Below, piece by piece: positions 21,640 through 60,590 of a stretch of 64,000 bases of DNA. Origin of the DNA: Planococcus sp. SK3692. Its GTDB lineage: Bacteria > Bacillota > Bacilli > Bacillales_A > Planococcaceae. The notes beneath the pieces were generated by a model, which searched no databases, was not told the DNA's origin, and worked only from the letters and a program-made list of their open reading frames with translations. The stretch is from assembly GCF_028890485.2 (NCBI RefSeq), contig NZ_JARCHV010000002.1:434001-498000 (forward strand), given 5' to 3'. Positions within the stretch are counted from its first letter, which is position 1. Each line of letters opens with the position of its first letter. The position numbers and the translations under genes were made by a program.

Positions 21640-21890
21640 CCCCGGGAAGCGATTCCCCCACTAGCCGGCAACTAGTAAAGAAGCAGATCCATTTAAACAA
21701 GCAACAATCAATGAATTATAACAGCTGCCGAGCGCCCAGGGTGAGCCGACGCAGTAGGAGAAAAGCTGCACCCAATAATCGTATGAACCGGCTTGCTCAA
21801 CTTTCGCTACGCTCAAGCATCGCAGATGAATTGGCTCAATTTACTTTCGCCAATTCATTGTTGCCAAAGGCCAACCCAAAGCAGGGCAGC
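21640..21890 (+). repeat. Structured intergenic repeat, copy I (expanded inner arm)
   Basis: This shares the flank CCCGGGAAGCGATTCCCCC and the core of the copy at 40598-40766. An outer helix GCTGCC (21724-21729) with GGCAGC (21885-21890) and a second helix GGGTGAGCC (21739-21747) with GGCCAACCC (21869-21877) are intact, but the compact terminal hairpin of other copies is replaced by about 120 bases with their own stems. It fills the gap between converging genes. Open frames crossing it have no ribosome site or recognisable product. Confidence 0.7.
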
Positions 21891-21948
21891 GGATATCAAT
21901 ACGAGGACGGCGTATGACAACATCTGTTATTCGAAAATCCGAACACAA

Positions 21949-40597: not shown

Positions 40598-40766
40598 TCC
40601 CGGGAAGCGATTCCCCCGCTAGCTGGAAACGTATATAGAAGCAGCTGATTAAACACACTTGATTCAATGAAATCTCTAAGCCGCTGAGCGCCCAAGGTGA
40701 GCCGACGCAATAAGACAAGTGGTTTTCTTGGCTTATTGCAAAAGGCCAACCCAAAGCCAGGCGGCG
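40598..40766 (+). repeat. Structured intergenic repeat, copy II
   Basis: Outer helix GCCGCTG (40680-40686) with CAGGCGGC (40758-40765, one bulged G); second helix GGTGAGCC (40696-40703) with GGCCAACC (40744-40751) containing a GA/CA internal loop; terminal hairpin GCAATAAG-A-CAAG with CTTG-G-CTTATTGC (40707-40739) and a seven-base loop. The same fold with different bases appears at 58.7-59.2 kb. It lies between converging genes; the rest of the 40.45-40.88 kb gap shows no gene. Confidence 0.8.
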
Positions 40767-40882
40767 AATAGGGAGATGAAGCAAAAATAGAATGTGAGAA
40801 AGATTCCACAATCAAACTCTCGCTCTCTTTTTCTACTACTCATTCGCGCAGCGTTTCTCATGAGCTGTTCATATTCAATGAA

Positions 40883-56980: not shown

Positions 56981-57044
56981 TTTTGGAAAAAATCCCGGTG
57001 TGATAAGATGGAGTCAGAATTTGTTTTTTGAAAGGAAGAGGACT

Positions 57045-58235
57045 TTGTCGAAAAAATTAGATGCGTTTTTGGAAGAAAACTTAACGGAATTGAAAGATCA
57101 AGGCCTATATAATGAGATCGATCCGGTAGAAGGCCCGAACGGAGCGATGATTAAAATCGGCGGCAAGGACCTGATCAACTTGTCATCAAACAACTACTTG
57201 GGGCTTGCAACAGATGAAGATTTGAAGAAAGTAGCGATTCAAGCGATCGAAAAATACGGAGTCGGCGCTGGTGCTGTCCGTACGATTAACGGGACGCTCG
57301 ACCTTCACGTGCAATTGGAAGAGAAATTGGCTGAGTTCAAAGGAACAGAAGCAGCGATTTCATTCCAATCCGGCTTCAACTGCAATATGGCGGCAATTTC
57401 TGCAGTCATGGACAAAAACGATGCCATCCTGTCTGATCAATTGAATCATGCATCGATCATCGACGGCTGCCGTTTGTCGAAAGCGAAAATCATCGCATTC
57501 AAACACTCCGACATGGAAGACCTTCGCCAGAAAGCGAAAGAAGCAACTGAATCCGGCCAGTACAATAAAGTAATGGTCATCACGGACGGCGTCTTCTCAA
57601 TGGACGGCGATATTGCGAAGCTTCCGGAAATCGTGGAAATCGCAAAAGAGTTCGACTTGATCACATACGTTGATGACGCACACGGTTCAGGCGTCACGGG
57701 CAAAGGGAAAGGCACTGTGAAGCATTTCGGCTTGGAAAAAGAAGTCGATATGCAAATGGGCACACTTTCAAAAGCAGTCGGCGTTGTCGGCGGTTATGTT
57801 GCCGGCAAGAAAAATCTGATCGATTGGCTGCGCGTGCGCTCGCGTCCATTCCTATTCTCGACAGCGGTAACGCCAGGGGACGTGGCAGCGACAACGGCTG
57901 CGGTCCAAAAAATCATCGATTCGACAGAACTTCACGACAAATTGTGGAACAACGGCGATTATTTGAAGAAGGGCTTGAAAGAGCTTGGCTTTGATATCGG
58001 CGATTCCGCGACACCGATCACGCCATGCATCATCGGCGACGAAAAATTGACTCAGCAATTCTCAAAACGCTTGTTTGAAGAAGGCGTCTACGCGAAATCG
58101 ATCGTCTTCCCGACGGTTCCACGCGGCACTGGCCGTGTGCGCAATATGCCAACAGCAGCACATACGAAAGAAATGCTCGACGAAGCGATCGAGATCTACG
58201 CAAAAGTCGGCAAAGAACTGAACGTCATCAAGTAA
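57045..58235 (+). CDS. kbl: Glycine C-acetyltransferase (2-amino-3-ketobutyrate CoA ligase)
   Basis: 396 residues of the alpha-oxoamine synthase family (PLP fold type I). Visible are [19 protein letters not shown] and the PLP-binding Lys243 in [11 protein letters not shown]. It converts 2-amino-3-ketobutyrate and CoA to glycine and acetyl-CoA in threonine breakdown. TTG 57045 follows AAAGGAAGAGG; the upstream open frame to 57000 overlaps the promoter. The usual partner tdh is not adjacent; related enzymes such as 8-amino-7-oxononanoate synthase are less likely in the absence of bio genes. Confidence 0.9.
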
Positions 58236-58239
58236 CACG

Positions 58240-58277
58240 AAACCCGCACAGCTCATTGAGTTGTGCGGGTTTTTTCT
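58240..58277 (+). terminator. Terminator of kbl
   Basis: AACCCGCACAGCTCA and TGAGTTGTGCGGGTT form a near-perfect stem followed by six T residues. Confidence 0.92.
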
Positions 58278-58310: not shown

Positions 58311-58557
58311 GACTGCGCTCCAGGGGGCACGCTTGGGGCTCGCAGGATGCGAGTCATGCAGTTGATGCGACAGGACGTCGCGTTTTCAACTGCCCGGGGA
58401 TGGGCGGGTGCCCCGCCAATGTGCCAATGAAAAAACCTGCGACATATCTGCAAACAGATATGTCGCAAATGAATAAGCTCAGCTCCCCTTCACTTATTCA
58501 TTCGCTCGGTCCCCCAGGAGTCAGCCATTTCCGCTCCGTCTCTAGTTTTAGAATGGA
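58311..58557 (+). repeat. Bacillales-type intergenic repeat with G-rich/C-rich arms, copy 2
   Basis: Arms GACTGCGCTCCAGGGGGCAC and CTCGGTCCCCCAGGAGTC match those at 40313-40450, but the interior is longer and holds different hairpins: GCAGTTGA with TCAACTGC, and TGCGACATATCTG with CAGATATGTCGCA (58436-58466, perfect 13 bp). The open frame across it is not a gene. Confidence 0.75.
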
Positions 58558-58639
58558 AAAGAATTCTTCCTGTACTGATACAAGTGTGAAGAGCTTTGGA
58601 TAGGTTCGTAAGTTCAAAGGAATAGTCGGTGAAGAATCA

Positions 58640-59300
58640 CTATCAATGTCGAGTTCAACTGAGCGTCTTCCATCAGTAGATGATTTAGAACAAAAAAGAT
58701 ACTTTCTCGCAGGAAACATTCAGTGAAATCGAAAAGCCGAACCGCGCTAACGGGCGAGCCGGAGCAATGAGACAAGCGTTCTTCTTGGCTCATTGCGGGA
58801 GGCCAGCCCAAAGCGGGAGGCGGCTAGTTCGTGATGAAATGTTCAATAGATAATACATCTCGCTCCCAAGTCCAACTAAGCGTCCCCATCAGCGGATGAA
58901 ATCAATTAACAGCCACACTTCCTCGCACATAACATCCAATGAAATCGAAAAGCCGAACCGCGCTAACGGGCGAGCCGGAGCAATGAGACAAGTGTTCTTC
59001 TTGGCTCATTGTGGGAGGCATGCCCAAAGCGGGAGGCGACTGCTTCGTGATGAAAAGATCGACAAACCATTCGTCTCACTCACAAGTCTAAATAAGTATC
59101 ATCCACCAGCGGATGAACATATGAAAAAGAGTTACTTCATCACCCGAAAAATCCAATGAAATCGAAAAGCCGAACCGCGCTAACGGGCGAGCCGAAGCAA
59201 TAAGACGAGCATTCTTCTCGGCTTATTGCGAGAGGCCAGCCCAAAGCGGTAGGCGCTTGCCAAAAGATGAAACAATAAACAATGAACAATCCATCTCGCT
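58640..59300 (+). repeat. Tandem array of three structured repeat units (216-217-bp period)
   Basis: The conserved core starting GAAATCGAAAAGCCGAACCG recurs at 58725, 58941 and 59158. Each core has helix P2, GGGCGAGCC with GGCCAGCCC (58752-58760 with 58801-58809 in unit 1), and hairpin P3, GCAATGAG-A-CAAG with CTTG-G-CTCATTGC (58764-58796). Unit 3 changes P3 to GCAATAAG-A-CGAG with CTCG-G-CTTATTGC: two compensatory changes. Loops are all seven bases. Spacers between cores are less conserved. It lies between the converging kbl and M20 genes and no credible gene is seen in it. Confidence 0.88.
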
Positions 59301-59344
59301 CACTTGCCCCACTAGCTCGCCTATTCCTCGTTCCGGTTAGCTTA

Positions 59345-59386
59345 CAATAAAATCCCCCTCCAGCGATCGGCTGAAGGGGGATTTGC
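59345..59386 (-). terminator. Terminator of the M20 hydrolase gene
   Basis: ATCCCCCTTCAGCC and GCTGGAGGGGGAT form a stem around GATC, followed on the minus strand by TTTTATT. Confidence 0.9.
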
Positions 59387-59414: not shown

Positions 59415-60590
59415 TTACTGGGCGTTGAAATAGATGGAAGCAAATACTTTTGCCGTCGTGTTCATTGCGTCTTCGTTAAAGTCGAAGTTTTCATGATGGT
59501 GCGGATAGACGCGAGTTTCGTCATTCATTTTCGCGCCGACAAAAAAGTAAGCGCCAGGTTTCGCTTGCGTGTAATAGGCGAAATCCTCGACCGGCATGAT
59601 TGGGTCGATATCGATGACATTGTCTTCACCGACGACAGGGCGAGCGGAAGTGCGGACAATTTCTGCCGCTTCCGGGTGGTTCCACAGCGAGTCGTAGCCG
59701 GTCTCGACAATCACTTCTGCGCGTGCGCCCATGGCAGCGGCAACGTTTTCAGAGACTCCGCGCACGCGTTCACTGGCGAGCTTGCGCAGTTCCGGATCGA
59801 ACACGCGGATCGTGCCTTCCATGACCGCTTTGCTTGGGATGACATTGTCAGCGTCGCCCGCATGGAATTTACCGATCGATACAACGAGTTCTTTCAGTGG
59901 GTCTGCATTGCGGCTGACAATCGATTGCAGTGCGACCATGATGTGGCTCGCAGTTAAGATCGGGTCGATGCCGGTATGTGGTTCTGCACCGTGGGTTCCG
60001 GAGCCGTACACATTGATTTTAATGGCGTCTTCAGAAGCTTGCAAGTAGCCATCGCGAAGATAGACTTTGCCGGATTCCATTTTGCTTTGGAGATGTGCAC
60101 CAAATACGAGATCGACGCCATCGAGGCAACCGTCTTCAATCATTGCGCGCGCACCGCCTGGTGATAATTCTTCGCCGAATTGGTGTATCAGCACAATGGT
60201 ACCTGGGAGTTCGTCTTTGATCGCCATCATTGCTTTCGCAAAGCCGAGAAGGCCGGCAGTATGGCCGTCGTGGCCGCAAGCATGCATAACACCTGGAACC
60301 GTCGATTTATAAGAAACTTCTTTTTGATCGTCGATCGGAAGCGCGTCAAAGTCAGCGCGAAAAGCAATTGTCTTGCCGGGTTTGCCGCCACGAATCGTGC
60401 CGACGACACCACGGCCGCCGACGCCTCGTCGTACTTCAACACCCATTTCCTCTAATCGATCTGCGATATAAGCAGGCGTTTCTACTTCCTGATGGGATAG
60501 CTCGGGATGCATATGGAGATAGCGGCGAATGTCCACCATTTCCTCTTGTAAGGAATCAATCAATGCATCGGTTTGTTTTAATAAGCTCAT
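59415..60590 (-). CDS. M20 family amidohydrolase/aminoacylase
   Basis: 391 residues. Metal-site motifs are CGHDGHTAGLLG, the catalytic glutamate in HQFGEELSPGGA, VFGAHLQSKMESG and a C-terminal HHENFDFNEDAM. The form is that of N-acyl-amino-acid hydrolases and diaminopimelate deacetylase-like enzymes, which release amino acids from amide conjugates. It is transcribed away from the epimerase-transporter pair, suggesting a shared amino-acid-conjugate or dipeptide pathway. AAAGGAG precedes the ATG. Confidence 0.9.
   Translation of the reverse strand: MSLLKQTDALIDSLQEEMVDIRRYLHMHPELSHQEVETPAYIADRLEEMGVEVRRGVGGRGVVGTIRGGKPGKTIAFRADFDALPIDDQKEVSYKSTVPGVMHACGHDGHTAGLLGFAKAMMAIKDELPGTIVLIHQFGEELSPGGARAMIEDGCLDGVDLVFGAHLQSKMESGKVYLRDGYLQASEDAIKINVYGSGTHGAEPHTGIDPILTASHIMVALQSIVSRNADPLKELVVSIGKFHAGDADNVIPSKAVMEGTIRVFDPELRKLASERVRGVSENVAAAMGARAEVIVETGYDSLWNHPEAAEIVRTSARPVVGEDNVIDIDPIMPVEDFAYYTQAKPGAYFFVGAKMNDETRVYPHHHENFDFNEDAMNTTAKVFASIYFNAQ

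Follow-up and report, generated by a model that had tools for sequence, protein, structure and literature searches.

A tandem array in Planococcus sp. SK3692, best read as a MITE-derived structured repeat amplified in place

What kind of element is repeated in tandem between two convergent genes of Planococcus sp. SK3692 is the question raised by positions 58640-59300 of the window, as we call the whole 64,000-nt stretch of DNA analyzed. An initial annotation had described there a three-unit array at 216-217-bp spacing and offered three options: an uncharacterised structured RNA, a regulatory element or a mobile hairpin element. We found three head-to-tail units of ~216 nt, each with a rod of ~92 nt, and a profile search matched three copies, 216 and then 217 nt apart (Table 1). 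The rod combines P1 and P2 with a long hairpin, P3, which carries an A/G mismatch and an internal loop rich in purines. From the outside inwards, the core has an outer helix, then GGGC/GCCC (P2; other copies have GGGT/ACCC), a 2x2 loop, GCC/GGC, the 3x4 loop with its purines (GAN/NRRA), P3 and the terminal loop. All three copies have the P3 shape first reported, with 8+4 pairs, A opposite G and seven bases in the loop, and the two P3 pairs said to be altered on both sides between units do distinguish copies 1-2 from copy 3. In copy 2, moreover, the base of P3 holds a G-U (TTGT), and GGCATGCCC is shifted. The longest ORF wholly within the array, considering ORFs of at least 50 aa, encodes 87 aa. 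The upstream gene we take to be kbl, coding for glycine C-acetyltransferase. A helix closing the whole unit (AGCGA/TCGCT) was considered and dropped, as its middle pair is C-A in 14/47 and 6/18 units and T-A in just 2/47 and 1/18.

Table 1. Coordinates of the array, its surroundings and the other copies in the window.
Feature	Coordinates	Strand	Evidence
Degenerate copy, P3 split by ~96 nt	21708-21897	+	Two nhmmer pieces; R2 27.7 bits; sequence
Single copy, type B, whole	40664-40770	+	nhmmer 4e-30; R2 63.5 bits
Gene upstream of array	57000-58235	+	Pfam aminotransferase class I/II
Terminator-like inverted repeats beside array	58240-58272 and 59350-59384		
Bacillaceae-1 RNA (RF01690), known dispersed hairpin element	58339-58394	-	Rfam gathering match, 40.9 bits
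Leader (TTCCGCTCCGTCTCTAGTTTTAGA...), conserved, before first copy of many arrays	58529-58650, ends approximate	+	Eye reading across 45 groups
Unit 1	58651-58866, boundaries approximate	+	211-nt repeat family, spacing 216; common 5'/3' unit parts
Core copy 1	58733-58824	+	R2 83.8 bits; P3 58764-58796; profile match 58720-58829
Unit 2	58867-59083, boundaries approximate	+	Repeat family; common unit parts
Core copy 2	58949-59040	+	R2 81.6 bits; P3 58980-59012; profile match 58937-59045
Unit 3	59084-59305, boundaries approximate	+	Repeat family; common unit parts
Core copy 3	59166-59257	+	R2 88.8 bits; P3 59197-59229; profile match 59154-59260
Gene downstream of array	59415-60590	-	Pfam peptidase M20, amidohydrolase-like

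Repetition by chance is excluded, because a BLASTN search with the array hit 36 other sites of this genome, the best of them at 4e-146, and a covariance model (R1), which the initial annotation had proposed as a check and which we built from the genome's own copies, gave 76 genome matches at E<=0.01 and was positive in Planococcaceae relatives. Iterated nhmmer on the loci retrieved gave 56 matches. Beyond the window array the genome holds ~70 copies; its 74 cores fall into 45 groups, two of them weak (L023, plus strand, and L051), of which 25 are single, 14 double, 3 triple and 3 quadruple. Two main types differ in the letters of P1/P2 and in spacing (mostly 214-219 versus 238-249), with single spacings of 200, 232 and 294 also present. 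The two further copies first pointed out in the window were both recovered, one whole and one with an interrupted P3 (Table 1). The insert in the latter, at 21762-21857, is ~96 nt of other hairpin-like sequence, and the palindromes upstream in loci L057, L061 and L067 contain sequence of similar appearance.

The fold was examined in two alignments. For the own-genome set we took 48 of the 56 nhmmer matches, the other eight being three partial matches, the split copy in its two halves, an exact duplicate, a copy degenerate at its 5' end and a divergent one. Here 92.8% of cells pair versus 84.5% when shuffled, double changes occur at 15 of 29 pairs, and 113 cells are changed on both sides versus 32.4 in shuffles, none of 500 of which reached 113; with the partner slid by 1-3 columns, 3-16 both-sided cells remain. 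Further pair types show no excess (34 versus 34.1), and P1 is paired in 82% of cells, no more. The second alignment, of 48 copies from five genera (40 rows picked from 92 plus 8 own-genome rows), gave 94.6% paired cells versus 78.5% shuffled, double changes at 18 of 24 pairs and 176 both-sided cells versus 48.4 (0/500 shuffles), with 15-29 in the slid controls. Moreover, we compared this genome with a sister species (G026) over ~400 kb, where aligned blocks are 82-98% identical, most of them 89-96%. In 16 orthologous units, the first ones being taken where copy number differs (the last ones once), 15 double changes keep a pair and 1 loses pairing, whereas slid controls keep 0-3; among single changes 11 lose the pair, 6 keep it and in 3 neither is paired. 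Orthologous cores diverge by 8.6% (137 of 1602), stems by 5.6% and unpaired positions by 13.4%, versus 16.7% in the leader, 15.8% in the 75 nt upstream and 16.4% in the 60 nt downstream, so that the leader diverges at the spacer rate; in these counts one of the 16 pairs, unaligned in the core, contributes leader letters alone, and the leader stretch of later array units includes the preceding unit. Since the covariation counts exceed two kinds of controls and the ortholog comparison agrees, selection to maintain the fold of the ~92-nt rod, which had been argued from the paired changes, is supported. The nearest relative of a unit in the other species sits at the same locus for 29 of 40 units and at another locus for 11, and therefore exchange between loci may be partly behind the preserved pairing.

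The same comparison informs on the history of the sites. Twelve of the 13 array loci are common to both species, as is the split copy; the thirteenth is cut away in G026, which has no array site of its own and no new site at the 13 loci (~400 kb). At 7 of the 13, the two species have different numbers of full-length cores. For the gap beside kbl we sampled 11 near congeners and 9 of 28 more distant ones. The element lies between the two genes in all 12 close genomes, with 3, 1, 2, 2, 3, 1, 2, 0, 4, 4, 1 and 1 intact cores; where none is intact the unit is present with P3 deleted, and P3-less units also stand beside intact ones (L066, L057). None of the nine more distant congeners has a core in the gap, which measures just 150-225 nt in the eight read out. 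Sites are shared, no site is particular to G026 and core counts differ; therefore, the insertion is old, and turnover proceeds through gain and loss of whole units. In element-free kbl-amidohydrolase gaps (L068-L076) we also saw rows of ~20-nt pseudo-repeats, each species with its own word (AATACTGTCC, AATACGACCAG, AATATGCTCC).

The relatives suggest where the rod may come from. In Sporosarcina and some Planococcus species it lies inside elements of ~160-540 nt bounded by terminal inverted repeats (TIRs), CTATATAWGTTGAACWAA. The minimal complete copies, of ~160 nt, consist of inverted repeat, rod and inverted repeat (L356, L358, L366, L375), and one of this length is predicted to fold end to end as one hairpin (DNA fold z -3.3); in larger copies two rods stand in inverted orientation to each other, and a stretch of genome G156 has at least 7 alternating rods in ~205-nt steps. 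In genome G216, grouped with Sporosarcina, identity between copies at separate loci reaches 94% over 480 nt, as between L336 and L337, which have their ends in common (CTATATATGTTGAA... and ...TTCAACATATATAG in G216 copies). With up to 2 mismatches the TIR pattern matched G216 162 times versus once for the reversed control, and 23 facing pairs, 95-818 nt apart, were found among the 100 matches listed. Ends of this type occur in Planococcus congeners as well, for example at both ends in L079. When at least 14 of the 18 letters had to match within 260 nt of a core (shuffled one-side rate 0-1.9%), a TIR flanks at least one side of 11/20 congener cores, 32/43 cores of G216 and G218, and 29/67 cores of named Sporosarcina, Filibacter and Paenisporosarcina loci, and both sides of 6/20, 6/43 and 9/67, respectively. 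Element ends run into TATATA, and a TA duplication fits some copies, being inseparable from the inverted repeat. Complete copies (~160-540 nt) have no coding capacity, and the element is dispersed, both over the 45 groups of this genome and at the kbl gap, occupied in 12/12 near versus 0/9 distant congeners. By its terminal inverted repeats, lack of coding capacity and dispersal, it is a MITE family in the relatives, and the window's clade carries a derivative without detectable ends. Because none of the 47 own cores examined has a TIR, the descent of the window arrays from the MITE rests on the shared rod; directly beside the genome's own first and last copies TIRs show no clear excess over shuffles, and the leader has a small excess in one orientation (11.6% versus 1.6%, 14 of 20 letters).

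We also looked for an autonomous partner. TIR pairs 0.9-3.5 kb apart gave 12 rows in 376 sequences, and Pfam found no transposase in the largest ORF of each of 10 of these rows (all except L093 and a repeat of L350); ORFs were also listed for 3 of 20 TIR loci, and an autonomous transposon with CTATATAWGTTGAACWAA ends was not seen in this partial search. A fragment of an IS3-like transposase (HTH_21, rve) lies at L358:1535-1948 (minus strand), ~0.5 kb from a minimal copy in G216, near one TIR and not between two.

A second hairpin accompanies the arrays. Bacillaceae-1 RNA has 17 matches in the genome, 16 of them above the cut-off; 12 of the 17 lie 234-333 nt upstream of an array and one overlaps an array, all of them antisense. 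In Sporosarcina, a 71-bit match (L363:1151-1217) is located between the inverted repeats of the present family, where, as we read the locus, Bacillaceae-1 would stand in for the interior of the rod. Both hairpins seem to travel in one vehicle, and the L363 match suggests that mobile elements carry the RF01690 family too. The array cores are not matched by RF01690, and, as the initial annotation had supposed when it knew of no named RNA and asked for a comparison with Rfam, no Rfam family covers the core at cut-off in the window, in the array with permissive limits or in the relatives.

All 40 sampled congeners have the element. With R1 it was found in 34 of 151 genomes of a family sample, and with a broader model (R2) in 100 of 261 genomes and 6 of 19 genera of the order; 20 of 398 genomes of a class sample were positive, all belonging to the family of the present genome (the share of this sample outside that family is not given). 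The family, order and class scans scored 10-25 candidates per genome, and copy numbers from them are lower bounds. A pattern scan of named genomes returned, among the matches listed (80 of 117), Planococcus/Planomicrobium, Sporosarcina, Filibacter and Paenisporosarcina, along with records named Arthrobacter beigongshangensis, which are probably misnamed, and one Fibrobacteria bin, unconfirmed by the model. The window array had no BLASTN match in plasmids and phages, and the pattern none in viral contigs.

Taken together, the best reading of the array is a MITE-derived structured repeat that has been locally amplified. More fully, we consider it likely, with a probability of roughly 0.75, that the element belongs to the interspersed repeats of Planococcaceae, being non-coding and non-autonomous, and that it descends from a MITE, with a fold-selected rod of ~92 nt as its interior. 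The observation that started this work was right and understated, and its interpretation is partly supported: the mobile hairpin element gains from the TIRs of the relatives and from the kbl gap, with 12 near congeners set against 9 distant ones, and the regulatory element is weakened by neighbours without a fixed relation to the arrays. A transposase acting in trans would once have moved the element, and copies would since have been gained and lost by recombination or slippage between units of ~216 or ~246 nt. The fold may be kept because the element would act as one strand in folded form; as the loops are conserved and G-U is in modest excess, we take RNA to be likelier than DNA. Such an RNA could be a read-through product or a transcript of its own, bound or processed by a host factor that would recognise the conserved internal loops.

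Genomic position bears on this choice. Among the 37 arrays (of 43 examined) whose neighbours could both be called by simple ORF rules, 14 are arranged (+,+), 10 lie between convergent, 9 between (-,-) and 4 between divergent genes. A cis-regulatory RNA or riboswitch is disfavoured, as the 37 arrays have no fixed position upstream of related genes; insertions that are tolerated, or units with weak transcription, would suit the position data, which single out no regulator. The leading strand carries 31/43 arrays in genome G009 and 33/44 in our own (from 71 of 76 R1 matches, omitting five weak or partial ones), versus 210/294 ORF-called genes. Against 50% the two biases give p 0.005 and 0.001, which are not independent; the share equals that of genes, and a replication-polarised element was dropped. 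With the G009 origin set at coordinate 1 from GC skew, 39/43 arrays fall in the origin-proximal 60% (KS p 2e-4). No array was seen at 1.56-2.33 Mb of that chromosome, around and beyond the terminus. As for the folded strand, each of the three cores in the window array is more stably folded than its dinucleotide shuffles, with z -3.5 to -4.8 on the plus and -3.8 to -4.1 on the minus strand, and copy 1 with its flanks reaches -2.5 on plus and -4.8 on minus; predicted fold energies do not decide between the strands. G-U exceeds A-C by 33:21 (p 0.13) and by 22:9 in a wider set, and orientation alternates in Sporosarcina arrays. The strand evidence is weak and partly contradictory, with a transcribed structured RNA as a candidate.

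These data leave room, at odds that we would put well short of even, for an element that works at the level of DNA, in which the rod would form where the DNA is single-stranded or extruded and would bind a protein of replication, recombination or the nucleoid. We know of no protein that binds the rod. The origin-proximal location, the leading-strand bias against 50%, the similar folding of both strands and the inverted rod pairs of Sporosarcina are all consistent with it, but the strand bias does not exceed the one shown by genes, and conserved internal loops and G-U tolerance look more RNA-like. Somewhat more doubtful are stand-alone structured ncRNA genes, transcribed from their own leaders and with a cellular function, to which the MITE context elsewhere would be secondary. 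They would account for a fold conserved in TIR-less arrays at shared positions, for arrays on the leading strand as often as genes and for G-U exceeding A-C; however, a leader that diverges at the spacer rate, the alternating orientation in Sporosarcina, and loci with 0-4 copies, some with P3 deleted, argue against them, the last against a need for any single copy.

A REP/BIME-like repeat mobilised by a RAYT (Y1 transposase) is very improbable. Hairpins in tandem and alternating layout recall such repeats, and the genome does have one Y1 gene (207 aa, PF01797), but the short repeat found on either side of that gene, TGTCCCTGTGCAYSACACAATT, is a different one, no core lies within its 3.3-kb locus (one gene, one genome), and our element, with its inverted repeats, greatly exceeds a REP in length. 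The Y1 gene itself, RAYT-like and standing alone at G000:C5:794464-794799 (L175), has inverted copies of TGTCCCTGTGCAYSACACAATT, a separate REP-like repeat, on its two sides. Finally, neutral sequence with recent tandem duplication and a chance hairpin would suit the rapid change in copy number and can be dismissed, given compensatory changes far above both controls and identical pairs conserved across genera.

Within the MITE-derived reading, a further step, which we hold to be rather unlikely, is that the former MITE has been domesticated at ~45 sites in the window's clade, having lost its ends and mobility and taken on a host function, with a chassis that swaps rod and Bacillaceae-1.

Repeat families with structure in bacteria are usually written off as debris. 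The present one can be traced from elements bounded by inverted repeats to arrays in tandem at shared positions, and its copies and species are numerous enough to ask why the fold persists. For Bacillaceae-1 RNA, an Rfam family of unknown function, there is now a mobile-element context, and the covariance model is now usable for annotating Planococcaceae genomes.

Among the top-ranked results of literature searches on Planococcus, Planococcaceae and Sporosarcina repeats or RNAs, Bacillaceae-1, bcr1 and BOX, we recognised nothing as this element. The likenesses below are drawn to the parts of each source available to us. The Sporosarcina arrays, with alternating inverted hairpins at regular spacing, resemble REP/BIME repeats with RAYTs, from which the family differs in size, in its terminal inverted repeats and in having no RAYT association here (PMC2817692). 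Like Bacillaceae-1 RNA, it is a dispersed hairpin RNA candidate of the same bacteria (PMC2864571), its cores being unmatched by RF01690. The STAXI motif is likewise tandem and structured, with RNA and single-stranded DNA both under debate; STAXI, however, consists of pseudoknot repeats near DNA-handling genes, whereas we found a rod and no gene association (PMC2864571). The bcr1-bcr18 repeats of the Bacillus cereus group, a different host group, are interspersed and intergenic, some of them MITE-like and some structure-conserving, and 84/165 and 62/155 copies are described as part of a transcript (PMC3446304). BOX elements of Streptococcus pneumoniae, built as boxA-boxB(n)-boxC, are also intergenic non-coding repeats with predicted RNA stem-loops and a module that may be absent or repeated, and share the leading-strand and convergent-gene bias and the slow current insertion (PMC3049150). 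Unlike in BOX, as described there, the repeated module is here a unit of ~216-246 nt with a covarying rod of ~92 nt, and the arrays of this genome have no detectable terminal inverted repeats. Likened by description and not by sequence, the anatomy of the element would appear to work like that of BOX and of the MITE-type bcr repeats (PMC3049150, PMC3446304).
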